The translations under genes were made by a program, and so were the position numbers. A DNA stretch of 48,831 nt from a virus. The notes under the pieces are model-generated. The model made no database searches. It was not told the DNA's origin and saw only the letters and a program-made list of their open reading frames with translations. The DNA is taken from the IMG/VR virus record IMGVR_UViG_3300036852_000495, positions 1 to 48,831 of that record; one strand, written 5' to 3'. Shown here piece by piece: positions 1-29,094 of this stretch; the stretch's first letter is position 1, and every line of letters begins with the position of its first letter.

Positions 1-64
1 TGCTTGCCCGGCGCATGGTAGGCCCGGCCGGGCCCGGCGAACGTATCAATCCGACACCGGCCCC

Positions 65-93
65 TTGACACCTGATGCGCCGCTCGTTATACA
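65..93 (+). promoter_or_regulatory. Early rightward promoter
   Basis: TTGACA (65-70), a 17-nt spacer and TATACA (88-93) form an almost perfect vegetative sigma-70-type promoter on the plus strand. Transcription would start near 100 and lead into the plus-strand early genes. The spacer and -10 contain the element GCCGCTCGTTATACA (79-93), which recurs with one change at the minus-strand early promoter near 15540. The same sequence lies at 48769-48797 in the right terminal repeat. Confidence 0.85.
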
Positions 94-102
94 TGCGGCG
101 CA
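76..102. promoter_or_regulatory. Palindromic operator over the early -10 box
   Basis: TGCGCCGC (76-83) and GCGGCGCA (95-102) form a perfect 8-bp inverted repeat with an 11-nt centre that contains the -10 box (88-93). A repressor bound here would block RNA polymerase. The arms could also pair in RNA, but most of the element lies upstream of the predicted transcription start, so a DNA-binding site is more likely. Confidence 0.6.
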
Positions 103-123
103 AAGGGGGACTCGACATGGCAA

Positions 124-267
124 GTGAATCGCGCCTCCGACCTCGCGGCCGACGCGGCCGACCGGCTGGCCCTAGCGGACTACTCAGGCGCGGCGCTCCT
201 GATGACGGCGGCCGTGCTGGCGGCCCGCGCCGCACAGGACGCGCTCGCCGTCGCGCTGGGGGGGTGA
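124..267 (+). CDS. Small early protein, 47 aa
   Basis: Unrecognised Ala/Leu-rich protein, likely helical, first gene after the early promoter. I chose the GTG at 124 because this frame reads as a plausible protein (for example AADAADRLALADY). The well-spaced ribosome site (GGGGGA, 105-110) instead favours the ATG at 117, which begins with MASE like the genes at 2021 and 3073. That frame continues as an Arg/Gly-rich shadow product to 275. Either the ATG-to-GTG region contains a frameshift, or the ATG opens a leader peptide overlapping the GTG start. Function unknown. Confidence 0.45.
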   Translation: MNRASDLAADAADRLALADYSGAALLMTAAVLAARAAQDALAVALGG

Positions 268-313
268 CGCGATGAGCTGAGCTCTCCCGAGACTTTCGCT
301 AGCACGCTCACCA

Positions 314-382
314 GTCGGGCCGACCCGCGCGCTCGGCCCGACACGTGAACGGTCTGGGAACCGCTCAAGAAGGGATCACAAC
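314..382 (+). promoter_or_regulatory. Double-hairpin leader L2
   Basis: A perfect 10-bp stem (314-323 with 333-342, loop 324-332) is followed by a small 4-bp stem inside GTGAACGGTCTGGGAACCGC (345-364) and then the ribosome site of the gene at 383. No U-run follows, so it is not a classical terminator. AGCACGCTCACCAGT just before it (301-315) and CGTGAACGGTCT (344-355) recur exactly in leader L4. Confidence 0.6.
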
Positions 383-1288
383 ATGGCGACAGACACGCGG
401 CATTGGCACGACATGGCGAAGGTCAAGCACGCGCACGTCAACCTCCCGGCCAGTGGTCACACGCATGGGCGCGACGACGACGGCGTGCACGGCATCGACA
501 CCTACGGCGATCACGAGCACATGATCCGCTCCGGGCGCGTGGTGCGCTGGGACGTGATCGGCACGACCGCAGAGCGCACCGAGCAGGCTATCCGGCTCGC
601 CGAGGCGGCCGTGCACGACGCGATAGGCGAGGCGCTGATCCGCACGTTCCCCGAGGCGACCACGGGCGATGAGCGGCCGGATACCGTGTTCGCACTCACG
701 GCCGAGATCGCATCGACGGTGCGCGCGTGGGTCGAGGACAACGTGACCACCATGCCGGAACGTGCCGCCGACGATGCGGCAGACCTACGCGCGATGCGCA
801 CGGACCCCGACTATTGGGCAAAGCGCGCCGCGCGTGCCGATGTTGACCGCATTGAGCAGGAGGTACGCGCGCGCGATCCGCTCGCAGGCCCGGCACAGTA
901 CGCAGCGGCGCTCACGAAAGCGGCGCAGGCGGCCGACGAGACGGCCGCAGTCGTTCCCGTTCGCATTGGCACCACCGGGGCGCAGGTGCAGTGCGCCGAG
1001 TGTGGTCGCCCGGTCTCGCTGATCGTTGCCACGCAGACGCGTTTCTGTGATGGTCCCGACGCCTACCCCGATCACGTACCGGCACCGGCGTTCTACCCCG
1101 GACGTGTGACGGCACGCTCACTCGGCGCGTTCCTGTGGTCGCTGCCCGAGCAGGACACGCCGGTACTGATCGGCGCGCCGCAAGGCTGGTACTCCTACGT
1201 CGGCGAGCAGCACGCGCCGAGCGAAGCCAACGGCTACGCACTCCCCACGCTGGACGTGGGCGAGTCGTGGGACGCAACCGACCTGTAG
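383..1288 (+). CDS. Early protein of unknown function, 301 aa
   Basis: Largest plus-strand early gene. The first 50 residues are rich in His and Asp. The middle part is acidic and helical. A short cysteine cluster (CAEC, then a Cys about 18 residues on) near residue 213 could bind one metal with nearby His. The C-terminal part, with PVLIGAPQGWYSYV, resembles small accessory proteins widespread in phages of high-GC hosts, none with a known role. It starts at the ATG after AAGAAGGGA, directly behind leader L2. Confidence 0.85.
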   Translation: MATDTRHWHDMAKVKHAHVNLPASGHTHGRDDDGVHGIDTYGDHEHMIRSGRVVRWDVIGTTAERTEQAIRLAEAAVHDAIGEALIRTFPEATTGDERPDTVFALTAEIASTVRAWVEDNVTTMPERAADDAADLRAMRTDPDYWAKRAARADVDRIEQEVRARDPLAGPAQYAAALTKAAQAADETAAVVPVRIGTTGAQVQCAECGRPVSLIVATQTRFCDGPDAYPDHVPAPAFYPGRVTARSLGAFLWSLPEQDTPVLIGAPQGWYSYVGEQHAPSEANGYALPTLDVGESWDATDL

Positions 1289-1301
1289 CCGCCAGACCAC
1301 G

Positions 1302-1368
1302 TACGGCCGGGCGTGTGAGCGTTCGGCCGTATCGGTCCGGTTACTACCGGGGAAAGTGAGGACCCAGC
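1302..1368 (+). promoter_or_regulatory. Double-hairpin leader L3
   Basis: Stem 1 is TACGGCCG (1302-1309) with CGGCCGTA (1324-1331), loop 14 nt. Stem 2 is CCGGT (1337-1341) with ACCGG (1346-1350), loop TACT. A ribosome site (GTGAGGA) and the ATG at 1369 follow. The stem sequences differ from the other leaders but the two-hairpin order is the same. Confidence 0.55.
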
Positions 1369-1845
1369 ATGGCAGGCAAGCGCGAACCCGAACCCGCCGA
1401 CTACACCGACGTGGTGCGGGCGCTGAAAGCGCGAGGCTTCGGCGCTGATGTCTGGGGAACAGGCGGAGGCATCGACGCCGTAGCGGCGACCATTGACGGC
1501 GAGATACCGAACCCGGACCGGCGGCACCTGCTCATTACCTGCACCGATGGTGACTGGCTCGTCGGCATCGAAAACGGCGTCACCGATCACGACCTCACCG
1601 AGTTGTCTACGTCCGTCATGCTCGTGAACCTGCCGATTCACGACGCGATAGAGCGGCGCCATCCGGTGAGCACGGCGACGGCGAGCGAAGTCGCGGACAC
1701 GCTGGCTGATCTGGTCGTATCGCTCCTCGGTCCGGCCAACATCGCCAAGCGCGGCGCTCGGCGCATCGCCCGGCCGCGCCGCATCGGTCACTCGGTCCGT
1801 GTCCCACGATCCGCCCGGCAGGCGAACGTACAGCCCGACGAGTAG
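1369..1845 (+). CDS. Early protein of unknown function, 158 aa
   Basis: An N-terminal region with ALKARGFGADVWGTGGGIDA is followed by a strand-rich middle (LLITCTDGDWLVGIENG) and a basic Arg-rich tail that could touch nucleic acid. It stands alone between leaders L3 and L4a and starts MAGK after GAGGACCCAGC, the same ribosome-site context as the gene at 3073. Similar small proteins occur in actinophage accessory regions; no function is known to me. Confidence 0.8.
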   Translation: MAGKREPEPADYTDVVRALKARGFGADVWGTGGGIDAVAATIDGEIPNPDRRHLLITCTDGDWLVGIENGVTDHDLTELSTSVMLVNLPIHDAIERRHPVSTATASEVADTLADLVVSLLGPANIAKRGARRIARPRRIGHSVRVPRSARQANVQPDE

Positions 1846-1857
1846 CGCGTTACGTCG

Positions 1858-1914
1858 TGCGCCCGAGCGCGCGATCCCCCACGCTCGGGCGCATCCGTGA
1901 CGGTCTAGCCGTCA
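1858..1914 (+). promoter_or_regulatory. Double-hairpin element L4a without a gene behind it
   Basis: A perfect 12-bp stem (1858-1869 with 1882-1893, loop 12 nt) is followed by TGACGG (1898-1903) pairing with CCGTCA (1909-1914) around loop TCTAG. No start codon follows; the next leader, L4, begins 35 nt downstream. It looks like a tandem, possibly decayed, copy of the same leader element. Confidence 0.5.
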
Positions 1915-1934
1915 TCAGTCGCTCAGAACCGCGT

Positions 1935-2020
1935 AGCACGCTCACCAGTGGCGCCGTGTCGTGCGATCCGGCGCCATGCGTGAACGGTCTACCCGTTCAA
2001 GAAAATGGAGGCGTCCCGAC
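1935..2020 (+). promoter_or_regulatory. Double-hairpin leader L4
   Basis: AGCACGCTCACCAGT (1935-1949) repeats 301-315 exactly. Stem 1 is TGGCGCCG (1949-1956) with CGGCGCCA (1969-1976). Stem 2 is GAACGG (1982-1987) with CCGTTC (1993-1998), loop TCTAC. GGAGG (2007-2011) sits 9 nt before the ATG at 2021. Confidence 0.6.
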
Positions 2021-2419
2021 ATGGCAAGTGAGACGCTAACGGCTGCGTGCGGCCACGACTACCAAACGCCGGAGGTATCCGGCGGGAGCGGCTACGCATT
2101 ACGGCGCGACCCAGAAACCGGGCGGGAGTTCCGCATCTGCTACGCGTGCGCCGAAACTATCGAGCGCGTGGAGTTTCTAGGCAGCGACCGATTCAGCGCG
2201 TACCTATCCGGCGATGGCCGCACGCTCACAACGTGGACCGGGGGAACGCTCGCACACGTCACGAGCGCGCACAACGGGCGGCGCTACTGGACCACCGGAA
2301 CGCAGATGATTCACGGTCGCGCCATCGACACGAGCGACGCCGAATGGTCGTTCTCGGCGATCGGTCGCGGCGCGCTCGCACGTCTCCGGCGCATCCCCCG
2401 TAAGGCGGTGGCTGCGTGA
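2021..2419 (+). CDS. Zinc-finger-like early protein, 132 aa
   Basis: It begins MASETLTAACGHDYQ and has a C-G-H plus C-Y-A-C arrangement in the first 45 residues, typical of a small zinc knuckle, followed by a strand-rich domain (LTTWTGGTLAHV) and a basic tail. I chose the ATG at 2021 because GGAGG lies 9 nt upstream and because MASE is shared with the gene at 3073. Its stop overlaps the start of the next gene (GTGA), so the two are translationally coupled. Function unknown. Confidence 0.85.
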   Translation: MASETLTAACGHDYQTPEVSGGSGYALRRDPETGREFRICYACAETIERVEFLGSDRFSAYLSGDGRTLTTWTGGTLAHVTSAHNGRRYWTTGTQMIHGRAIDTSDAEWSFSAIGRGALARLRRIPRKAVAA

Positions 2420-2778
2420 CCGCTCACCCTGCCATCCGCCACGATCCGCACGACCCCTGCCCGTTCTGCGGATGCGGTCCGACGACTCGCGCCCGGCGCG
2501 CGCGCGTCACCTCGCCGCCGCTCGCCGCGACGGTCCGCCACACACCCGGCCTTCCGCCACGCTTCCGCTCTGATCCGAACTGGCGACCTTATGAGCGGAC
2601 CGAGCCCTTCGGCGAGCTGCCGGCCGACTGGGCATACGCGGAGCAAGGGACGCGCGAGCACACTGCAACCGAGCGCGCGGAGATCACTAGGGCCGAGGCC
2701 TACATCGCCGAGCACCGTGGCGAGGTCGCCATCATCGACGAGCACAGCAACGCCATCACCGGATGGAGGGCGGCATGA
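2416..2778 (+). CDS. Early protein with CPFC motif, 120 aa
   Basis: GTG start overlapping the previous stop. The N-terminus has HDPHDPCPFCGCG, half of a zinc site. The centre is Pro/Arg-rich and the C-terminal part is acidic and helical (TERAEITRAEAYIAEH). Probably a small accessory protein; no family recognised. Second gene of the 2021-2996 group. Confidence 0.75.
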   Translation: MTAHPAIRHDPHDPCPFCGCGPTTRARRARVTSPPLAATVRHTPGLPPRFRSDPNWRPYERTEPFGELPADWAYAEQGTREHTATERAEITRAEAYIAEHRGEVAIIDEHSNAITGWRAA

Positions 2779-2996
2779 GGCCACGACCGACGCGCACCTT
2801 CGACCCGAAGTACCCGCGACGACTGACACGACCGCAGACACAGCGTCGCGACGAGCTCGGCCGCGCGCTCGGGCGTCCCGGTCCGAGTGGACTAGTCGAC
2901 GACGGCGACGCCTGGCGCTGGGACGAAACGGACCGCGCCTGCCCGTACTGCGGCGACGACAAGCGCCACTATCACCCGAAGCGCCCAAACGCCTAG
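2775..2996 (+). CDS. Small early protein with CPYC motif, 73 aa
   Basis: Starts at the ATG that overlaps the previous TGA (ATGA), with GGAGGG just upstream; an in-frame ATG at 2763 is less well placed. The N-terminal half is basic (RPRPTRTFDPKYPRR). The C-terminus has WDETDRACPYCGDDKRHYH, a likely metal site using Cys and His. Last gene of its group; leader L5 follows. Confidence 0.7.
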   Translation: MRPRPTRTFDPKYPRRLTRPQTQRRDELGRALGRPGPSGLVDDGDAWRWDETDRACPYCGDDKRHYHPKRPNA

Positions 2997-3008
2997 CCGC
3001 TCCGCCAG

Positions 3009-3072
3009 TGCGCCGGTCCGCAAGGCCCGGCGCATGCGCGGCGCACTACGCGCCGAGAAGAGAGGACCCAGC
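3009..3072 (+). promoter_or_regulatory. Double-hairpin leader L5
   Basis: Stem 1 is TGCGCCGG (3009-3016) with CCGGCGCA (3027-3034), loop 10 nt. Stem 2 is CGGCGC (3039-3044) with GCGCCG (3050-3055), loop ACTAC. GAGAGGACCCAGC then leads to the ATG at 3073. The CGCCAG before stem 1 and GAGGACCCAGC at the end are shared with leader L3. Confidence 0.6.
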
Positions 3073-3702
3073 ATGGCAAGCGAAGAACGCAGCGAGCGAG
3101 AGGTCATGACGCGACCGCGAACGTTCACGGTCACGTACCCGTTTCGGTCGATGTATGACGTGAGGCAGGCCAACGACCGAGCCGGCTACCACTGGTTCAG
3201 CGAGGACACGCTGCGATGGTTCCGTGGTCGGGTGAGCGAGTCGCTATACGGCGGCCGCTACTTCGTGAGCAGCGAGCAAAACAGCGGCATGGGTCGCTCG
3301 TACCCGCGTCTGTACACCGTGCGTGAGGCTGTGCCTGACGGCGGCATCGAGACGGTGGGCGAGTTCCAAGGATTCAGCACGAGCGCGAAAGCACACCGAG
3401 CGGCGGCCGCGTACGCCAAGCGTCAGGGGAGCGAGTACCTGCGTGCCACGATCCGCGACGATTGGCGCCCGGACACGGTGCCGAATCCGATGCCCGGAAC
3501 CGTCGACCTAATCTTTGCATGGTTCGTCGACTACACCGGCGGCCACGCGTTCAACCGGGACGACATGCTCACGGCGCTGAAGCAACTCGTCGATGATGGC
3601 GCGCTTCGCTCGTACGTGAGCGGTAAGCGTCTCGCCGAGGGAGACCCCATCGGCGCCGAGGTGTACGAGCGGATCGCGGCCACGGCCGAGGTCGTCAAGT
3701 GA
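3073..3702 (+). CDS. Early protein of a widespread uncharacterised phage family, 209 aa
   Basis: It starts MASEERSER behind leader L5. The core (AGYHWFSEDTLRWFRGR, then YGGRYFVSSEQ, YTVRE and TVGEFQGFSTSAKAHRAAA) matches a pattern I know from many phage and mobile-element proteins with no assigned function (DUF7447-like, from memory, unverified). The C-terminal part is helical. An in-frame ATG at 3034 lies inside stem 1 and is unlikely. The stop overlaps the GTG of the next gene. Confidence 0.85.
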   Translation: MASEERSEREVMTRPRTFTVTYPFRSMYDVRQANDRAGYHWFSEDTLRWFRGRVSESLYGGRYFVSSEQNSGMGRSYPRLYTVREAVPDGGIETVGEFQGFSTSAKAHRAAAAYAKRQGSEYLRATIRDDWRPDTVPNPMPGTVDLIFAWFVDYTGGHAFNRDDMLTALKQLVDDGALRSYVSGKRLAEGDPIGAEVYERIAATAEVVK

Positions 3703-4193
3703 GCGGATCGCGTGTATTCGTGACGATCGAGGGCGGACTAGTGCAGGACGTGACCACTGAGGGCGAGGTCGCCGAGGTCGTGATCGTCGACTACGACGCC
3801 GACGAGCCGGACGCGCCCAACGCGCAGGAGATCGACGGCGACCTAGCGTATGTGACCATCTGGGACCGCAACCTTAGCGCGCCAGCTCGTGATCGGCGCA
3901 GTCCATCGAACCCGGACGTAAGCGCCGCGATCGAGCGACAGCGGGCGGCCGACTTCACACCGGTGTATTCACCCTGGCGACACGGCGGCTGGTACGTCGA
4001 CAACGTGGTGTATCCGTCCGGCGCCGTCGGATGCGTGAGCCGCAACTACCCCGATCACAAATGGCGCGTCGTGTGTACGGACGCGTACCCCGGCGAGCCG
4101 GGCGACGTGACCTATCCCAACCGCGACGCGGCCGCGCGCGCGGAGTACGCCATAGCTCGCGCCGAGCGTGAGCAGAAAGCGAGGACAGCGTGA
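3699..4193 (+). CDS. Early protein of unknown function, 164 aa
   Basis: GTG start overlapping the previous TGA. The N-terminus (VTIEGGLVQDVT, then VVIVDYDADE) follows a pattern common in small phage proteins of unknown role. The C-terminal part (YSPWRHGGWYVDNVVYPSG) is Trp/Tyr-rich and looks like a compact beta fold. Middle gene of the 3073-4630 group. Confidence 0.8.
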   Translation: MSGSRVFVTIEGGLVQDVTTEGEVAEVVIVDYDADEPDAPNAQEIDGDLAYVTIWDRNLSAPARDRRSPSNPDVSAAIERQRAADFTPVYSPWRHGGWYVDNVVYPSGAVGCVSRNYPDHKWRVVCTDAYPGEPGDVTYPNRDAAARAEYAIARAEREQKARTA

Positions 4194-4630
4194 CCACGTA
4201 CATACAGCCGGGCCAGCGCGTGCCGCCGTGCAAACGCTACTACGCGACGATCACGCGCGTTGCGTTTGATGACGGACCCGCTGACCGCGAGTTCGATAGC
4301 GACAAGGATGAGCACGCCGCGTTCGATGGCGTCACGCTGACGATCACGCAGGGCACGGCCATGAATCAGGTCAGTGAGGTCTACCCCGTTCGGCGCGTTG
4401 GCTTCGTCGTTACTCGGTTCGAGGAACGAGTCGCCACGCACTCATGGGAGGAGACGGTGTTGTACGGCGACACCGGACCCGGCCGTATCTACCAACTACC
4501 CATGTTCTGCGAAACCTGCAACACCGTGCGAGAAGCCACGGGCGAGGAATACAACGCGCACCTCGACGCCGAGGTCGCCGCTGGCCGCGCCGTGGCAGAG
4601 GAGGTCTACGAGTCGGACCCGCGCGACTAA
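4190..4630 (+). CDS. Early protein of unknown function, 146 aa
   Basis: GTG start overlapping the previous stop. Mostly beta-like sequence, with CETC near residue 104, a possible half zinc site. Last gene of the plus-strand early region. Its TAA and the TAG of the convergent minus-strand nuclease gene overlap within CTAA (4627-4630), so there is no room for a terminator between them. Function unknown. Confidence 0.75.
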   Translation: MTTYIQPGQRVPPCKRYYATITRVAFDDGPADREFDSDKDEHAAFDGVTLTITQGTAMNQVSEVYPVRRVGFVVTRFEERVATHSWEETVLYGDTGPGRIYQLPMFCETCNTVREATGEEYNAHLDAEVAAGRAVAEEVYESDPRD

Positions 4631-5010
4631 CCGGCCCCCTCATCCTCGCGGCCGACGCCCGGTCCCCACAGACCGGGCGTCGGCTTGTCCCGGTCGATCA
4701 GCGCGGCGCTGATCGCCTCAAGGTCGAGCGGGCGCCAGAGCGCGACGACGGGGGGGCGGTCCACTGACGCGAGACTGTCCAACCAACCCCGCTGATCCGG
4801 CGTCGGCGCGGCGTGAGACGTGCCCTCGCGCGGGCCACGATCACGCTTGAGCTCGGCGATGAACAGACGACCGCGGGAGACGATCTGCACATCGGGCCAT
4901 CCCGCTGGCGACCGCTCGGAGCGGTATGTGAAGTACAAACGCGCGCCGATCCGCTTGCATAGCGCCCGCAGCCATTCGCGGAACTGCGCCTCGGTCGCGG
5001 CCCCGCTCAC
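4627..5010 (-). CDS. VRR-NUC-type nuclease, 127 aa
   Basis: The sequence ERSPAGWPDVQIV-RGRLFIAELKRDRG, followed by TPDQRGWLDSL and VVALWRP, is the core of VRR-NUC / Holliday-junction-resolvase-like nucleases: catalytic Asp in GWPD and Glu-x-Lys in ELK. Such small stand-alone proteins in phages are thought to process DNA junctions or branches during replication, recombination or packaging. GTG start overlapping the methyltransferase stop (GTGA), so the two are co-translated. Last gene of the minus-strand early/middle operon. Confidence 0.85.
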   Translation of the reverse strand: MSGAATEAQFREWLRALCKRIGARLYFTYRSERSPAGWPDVQIVSRGRLFIAELKRDRGPREGTSHAAPTPDQRGWLDSLASVDRPPVVALWRPLDLEAISAALIDRDKPTPGLWGPGVGREDEGAG

Positions 5011-15531: not shown

Positions 15532-15581
15532 CCGCCGTTTGTACAACGAGCGGCGGACAATGTCAACCGCCGCTCGTACAA
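15532..15581 (-). promoter_or_regulatory. Minus-strand early promoter with operator sites
   Basis: On the minus strand: TTGACA (15566-15561), 17-nt spacer, TACAAA (15543-15538). The 11-bp arms 15546-15556 and 15567-15577 are a perfect inverted repeat with the -35 in the loop. CCGCCGYTYGTACAA occurs twice on the plus strand (15532-15546 and 15567-15581). GCCGCTCGTTGTACA (minus strand, 15554-15540) matches 79-93 of the rightward early promoter at 14 of 15 bases. Confidence 0.85.
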
Positions 15582-15586
15582 CGCGA

Positions 15587-15618
15587 GAGGCCCCCGTTAA
15601 TGCCCAACCGGGGGCCTC
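15587..15618 (-). terminator. Terminator-like hairpin at the end of the late operon
   Basis: GAGGCCCCC (15587-15595) pairs with GGGGGCCTC (15610-15618), loop 14 nt with further partial pairing. It lies between the holin stop (15646) and the minus early promoter. No U-run follows, so termination may need a factor or rely on the strong stem. Confidence 0.6.
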
Positions 15619-28974: not shown

Positions 28975-28982
28975 CTAATTGC

Positions 28983-29054
28983 CTATACGCCACCGTCTTC
29001 GCTCATGATGGAGACGAGGATGGTCGCGAGCGTTATGGCGACGATGCGACGCAT
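28983..29054 (-). CDS. Mini-protein of 23 aa, or hairpin
   Basis: MRRIVAITLATILVSIMSED plus GGV: a basic start and one hydrophobic segment, with a good ribosome site (AGAGGAGGACGAGG) before the ATG. The same DNA forms nested inverted repeats: ATACGCCACCGTC (28985-28997) pairs with the segment ending at 29083, and GACGAGGATG with CATCCTCGTC. It may therefore act as a transcript structure rather than, or besides, coding for a peptide. Confidence 0.4.
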   Translation of the reverse strand: MRRIVAITLATILVSIMSEDGGV

Positions 29055-29094
29055 CCTCGTCCTCCTCTTCGACGGTGGCGTATCGCGCGGTGGA

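Follow-up and report, generated by a model that had tools for sequence, protein, structure and literature searches.

The window considered here is the whole 48,831-bp stretch of record IMGVR_UViG_3300036852_000495, which comes from an uncultured virus. The record begins and ends with the same 127 bp, making the unit about 48.7 kb, and its GC content is 66%. The major capsid protein is SU10-like, and the terminase distantly resembles those of Streptomyces phages (~25% identity). A single short early operon occupies positions 1-4650 on the + strand behind a promoter-like site (TTGACA-17-TATACA), and nearly all of the remaining genes are oriented leftward. The promoter is called only as probable, since it received no score from the consensus scan. 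The presence of one promoter-like site and of overlapping genes suggests that the early operon is transcribed as a single message. The palindrome directly past its end could possibly be a terminator, though a clear U-run is absent.

Table 1. Features of the early operon and its intercistronic leaders, in window coordinates.
Feature	Position	Strand	Remarks
Probable early promoter	65-93	+	TTGACA 65-70, 17 nt, TATACA 88-93; read directly
L1	76-102	+	8-bp perfect palindrome TGCGCCGC/GCGGCGCA, -10 in loop
Gene 1	124-267	+	Start uncertain: GTG 124, or ATG 117 in another frame
L2 leader	297-363	+	Before gene 2; 5′ flank, stem 1 314-342 (10 bp, loop 9), 3′ flank, weak stem 2 350-363 (4 bp)
Gene 2	383-1288	+	301 aa; no family match
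L3 leader	1289-1350	+	Before gene 3; stem 1 1302-1331 (8 bp, loop 14), stem 2 1337-1350 (5 bp)
Gene 3	1369-1845	+	158 aa; no family match
L4a leader	1849-1914	+	Stem 1 1858-1893 (12 bp, loop 12), stem 2 1898-1914 (6 bp); L4 next, no intervening gene
L4 leader	1925-1999	+	Before gene 4; stem 1 1949-1976 (8 bp, loop 12), competing stem 2 1981-1999 (7 bp)
Genes 4, 4b, 4c	2021-2996	+	2021-2419, 2416-2778, 2775-2996; junctions overlap, leaders absent
L5 leader	3001-3055	+	Before gene 5; stem 1 3009-3034 (8 bp, loop 10), stem 2 3039-3055 (6 bp)
Gene 5	3073-3702	+	DUF7447 (PF24239), E 1.5e-17; links the compared phages
Genes 6 and 7	3699-4630	+	Gene 7 at 4190-4630; junctions overlap, leaders absent
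Perfect palindrome	4651-4684		14 bp; directly past the operon, within convergent gene 4627-5010

After gene 1, all junctions without overlap (268-382, 1289-1368, 1846-2020 and 2997-3072) carry a leader, and none of the overlapping start/stop junctions (4/4b, 4b/4c, 5/6 and 6/7) does. The five perfect stems reported in the first-pass annotation, beginning at 314, 1302, 1858, 1949 and 3009, are real and have the lengths it gave. Stem 2 follows stem 1 after 4-7 nt, and the ribosome sites lie a few nt past stem 2, unpaired in most folds. The order of stem 1, stem 2 and ribosome site had been proposed for all five; it is found at L2, L3, L4 and L5, whereas L4a is followed by L4 instead. L4a and L4 stand in tandem within one gap, which leaves L4a without a ribosome site. 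In L3, L4a and L5 the upstream stop codon falls 1-10 nt from the paired 5′ flank. The starts at 1369, 2021 and 3073, together with ATG 117, have a common start context ending (A/G)(G/A)C-ATGGCA, and L3 and L5 share the start-associated block GAGGACCCAGCATGGCA.

Perfect stems of at least 8 bp occur six times in 1-4650, always in non-coding DNA (five times in a gap and once at the promoter), and never in the 4,061 nt of coding sequence. A stem of at least 8 bp followed by one of at least 4 bp appeared in 0.4, 0.3, 1.3 and 0.4% of dinucleotide shuffles, gap by gap, so that the probability of the double is 0.003-0.013 per gap against its own shuffles. The arms of stem 1 pair at 100% with their own partners, compared with a mean of 53% when arms are swapped between leaders. 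No leader matched Rfam 15 at the gathering threshold; the only two matches (E 2.4 and 3.6) were at chance level and fell outside the leaders. A simple consensus scan of 1-4800 found no U-run or terminator-like site in the leaders or the operon, which bears out the absence of U-runs already remarked on, and the leaders do not combine a GC-rich hairpin with a U-run as an intrinsic terminator does.

The fold energies of the leaders lie 2.3-3.9 SD below those of shuffles. Bulk fold z-scores over gaps differ by phage and include terminators. Hairpin length was rejected as a stand-alone signature because long irregular folds (at least 22 bp, -38 kcal/mol or lower) are too common at this GC content, occurring at 215 places in the genome. 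The case for the leaders is built on where they lie, on their perfect cores, on alternative pairing and on covariation, and not on fold energy. Elsewhere in the window, on the - strand at 28975-29094, a long and very strong hairpin (z ~ -9) falls where two structural genes seem to leave a gap; the gap may be an error of gene calling.

L1 is probably an operator-like DNA palindrome and not an RNA leader, since it lies mostly upstream of the likely transcription start. At 15546-15618, two adjacent palindromes of 10-11 bp precede leftward genes, and one of them has TTGACA in its loop (- strand). L1 and this pair suggest operator palindromes at promoters.

The flanks of stem 1 are part of the structure. 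The blocks AGCACGCTCACCAGT and CGTGAACGGTCT, noted in the first-pass annotation as shared by L2 and L4, are indeed present in both; what had been missed is that they pair with each other. On folding, they prove to be largely two complementary strands that extend stem 1. In L4, GAAC.GTAG.CG.TCAC pairs with GTGA.CG.CTAC.GTTC and lengthens stem 1 to ~27 bp, and other sequences extend it in L3 (GACC/GGTC flanks) and L4a (GTTACG/CGTGAC flanks). The extension turns stem 1 into a long irregular hairpin and draws on the same 3′ flank as stem 2, so that the two compete. The long-hairpin and two-hairpin folds of L3 and L4 are ~3 kcal/mol apart, and L4a and L5 prefer the two-hairpin fold. In the best folds the hairpins measure 24 bp in L2 and L3, 27 bp in L4, and 14-15 bp in L4a and L5. 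Fisher combination against shuffled flanks, over 17 leaders from four phages (the window phage, L026, L067 and L028), gave p=2e-12 for the extension and p=5e-9 for stem 2, values that are optimistic because these leaders were picked for showing the pattern. Taken singly, the window leaders are of modest significance for the extension (p 0.03-0.13).

The search for relatives found no close DNA relatives among phages, with matches to the methylase only, and none in IMG/VR by gene 2 or the shared motif; the terminase gave one weak match. The DUF7447 profile of gene 5 reached 80 loci in IMG/VR. Several DUF7447 phages with little else detected in common carry double hairpins in their early gaps, and this type of leader is absent at many of the other DUF7447 loci. 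The early-gap leaders of the L006/L008 family are similar, are AT-richer, and each end CCTAG...AAGGATCAA before the ATG. L026 has leaders in nearly every gap, with the upstream stop codon adjacent to or inside the 5′ flank. Longer perfect hairpins occur in the early gaps of L067 and L028, GTE5 provides one clear case, and L098, reached via another gene, has more such leaders. The contigs with leader-like elements (the L006/L008 family, L026, L067, L028 and L098) have no DNA similarity, and gene searches with L026 and L067 found few orthologues. The leader feature is real and more general than the first-pass annotation thought.

Perfect pairing of five different stems had been taken as covariation. 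The five paralogues show only independent perfect pairing; it is in the orthologous leaders of the L006 family that compensatory changes are found. Orthologues were used instead of the window copies because the latter share a shape, have almost no sequence in common, and differ in stem and loop length. We aligned the leader before the DUF7447 gene from nine L006-family members (6 distinct rows, variable loops removed by hand). Stem 1 is invariant in this alignment. Stem 2 has two-sided changes at three of its five pairs, with 100% pairing and no broken pair, and sliding the pairing partners destroys the pairing. By eye, L023 and L030 show the same covariation for another leader. Covariation together with the G-U pairs present in these orthologous leaders indicates RNA and not a DNA palindrome. 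The earlier argument for RNA structure over a fixed protein site is supported: the stems differ yet pair, G-U is tolerated, and three pairs change on both sides in the L006 family.

Other kinds of element occupy early gaps in other phages. In Streptomyces phage Amela (NC_028904, L093; 43729-48760, - strand), a tRNA T-arm-like minihelix (e.g. GGGTGACTGGCAGGCACCGAGGTTCGAGCCCTCGGCACCC) lacking an anticodon arm stands in most early gaps; possibly, given its resemblance to a minimal RNase P substrate, it is another processing signal at the same address. Upstream of the DUF7447 gene, six IMG/VR contigs (L017, L044, L046, L049, L054 and L057) carry similar elements made of an acceptor stem and a T-arm (CGGGTGGCTGGCAGGCTTTCAGGTTCAAGCCCTGAACACCC). 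Arthrobacter phage Tank (NC_041961, L094) has a near-identical hairpin, GGGTCGGGTAACCGACCC, in most early gaps, fixed in sequence unlike the window leaders. A repeated Y-shaped or long hairpin leader is present in nearly every gap of L012 2548-10160, and L013 and L015 have three-way-junction-like leaders with a second hairpin.

The SAS/ESAS of cluster K mycobacteriophages and comparable Microbacterium phage motifs are inverted repeats that immediately precede a conserved start-site sequence in many gaps between non-structural genes (PMC3203893, PMC7302621). The window also has a start-associated block, and the start-associated sequence of L3 and L5 resembles that of the cluster K phages. The arms of ESAS, however, are conserved 17-nt sequences whose changes give no support for RNA pairing, whereas the window arms differ in every leader and pair perfectly. 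We found no description of such leaders in the open-access literature.

Bacteriophage T7 offers a functional parallel. Its RNase III sites R0.3, R0.5, R1, R1.1 and R1.3 are located in the gaps before genes 0.3, 0.5, 1, 1.1 and 1.3. When the T7 early gaps were folded in the same way, R0.3, R0.5 and R1.3 formed irregular hairpins of 19-25 bp, and R1 and R1.1 formed a 9-10 bp core with a small downstream hairpin. The window leaders have the same two looks, with long hairpins in L2, L3 and L4 and a core plus stem 2 in L4a and L5. T7 has one such element in each gap of its early polycistronic message, as does the window phage in its presumed single message, and the upper stem is perfect in both. 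The window differs from T7 in its GC-rich stems, in the clear alternative pairing of the 3′ flank and in being an unrelated phage, and its cleavage is putative.

Our best explanation, held tentatively and at somewhat below an even chance, is that the leaders are intercistronic processing or insulation elements working like the T7 early RNase III sites. The perfect core of stem 1, lengthened by its flanks, would form an irregular hairpin of about two helical turns. A host double-strand endonuclease, most likely RNase III, would cut this hairpin and separate the upstream and downstream messages. Once released from the 5′ flank, the 3′ flank could then refold as stem 2, a small hairpin close to the 5′ end made by the cut and directly before the unpaired ribosome site. 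The outcome would be separate, protected and presumably stabilised messages for each gene block. The enzyme is assumed to be the host's because no RNase III (PF14622) was detected in the phage; RNase III acts on mRNA in Streptomyces too (PMC2936110). In the L006 family, the first gene takes its 5′ end from the promoter and has a single hairpin placed like stem 2, as the processing model predicts. Among the roles in stability, translation and processing that the first-pass annotation left open, processing would fit best. Counting against the processing model are the preference of L4a and L5 for two hairpins, the frequency of long folds in a genome of 66% GC, the modest significance of the extension in single leaders, and the lack of variation in stem 1 of the aligned L006-family leader. 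Sequence analysis itself shows the position, the perfect cores, the potential for alternative pairing, covariation in one family, and recurrence in unrelated phages.

A broader reading, possible and rather doubtful, is that the leaders represent an undescribed and widespread class of bistable intercistronic phage RNA, in which the 3′ flank of a perfect core hairpin pairs with either the 5′ flank, giving the long hairpin, or itself, as stem 2 ahead of the ribosome site. Such RNAs would lie in every early gap, be conserved in shape only across unrelated phages, and act as a processing or ribosome-sensing switch.

The main rival of the processing model is a translational insulator, enhancer or switch, because upstream genes have their stop codons against or within the 5′ flank, as in L3, L4a, L5 and L026. 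Hairpins left uncut would hold the cistrons apart, leave the ribosome site free of pairing and prevent upstream coupling, and ribosomes at the upstream stop may switch the leader between the extended hairpin and stem 2. The unpaired ribosome sites just past stem 2 fit this explanation, as does the absence of leaders at exactly the gene overlaps. Nonetheless, we consider it unlikely, as no gene belongs to L4a, the L006-family first gene has one hairpin only, and translation does not need a hairpin of 20-27 bp. Strong GC-rich hairpins close behind stop codons could also be transcriptional elements, either attenuators, pause sites, weak terminators lacking a U-run, or 3′-end protectors of the upstream message. 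The absence of a U-run makes this improbable, and a terminator before each gene would be polar unless relieved. A transcriptional role also leaves stem 2, with its fixed place before the ribosome site, unexplained.

The first-pass annotation had compared the leaders with the put RNA antiterminators of HK022, whose pair of stem-loops binds RNA polymerase in cis to permit read-through. Two tandem stem-loops, ~60-70 nt in all, do occur in the early transcripts of both phages (PMC9378689). The analogy is weak beyond this, and we give it very little credence. The put RNAs share sequence, including single bases that are essential, occur once per early operon, act on RNA polymerase and pass distant terminators (PMC9378689). 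In contrast, the leader stems have no common sequence (judged by the 53% pairing of swapped arms and by Rfam), one element stands in each gap, and the consensus scan found no terminator-like site in the 4.6-kb operon. Highly improbable as well is a DNA-level element, an operator or recombination palindrome of the kind suggested for the cluster K ESAS. The palindromes at L1 and 15546-15618 overlap promoter-like hexamers, but L2-L5 have no common stem sequence, the orthologous leaders carry compensatory and G-U changes, and orientation and spacing are tied to the ribosome site.

Short repeats in front of phage early genes have for years been catalogued with no function known. The window leaders are a structural RNA family that is invisible to sequence searches, and they come with a specific, testable mechanism. 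If cleavage as set out in the processing model is true, many uncultured phages, relatives of Actinobacteria phages among them, would prove to cut their messages in the manner of T7, and the leaders would be ready-made modular parts for separating the genes of an operon.
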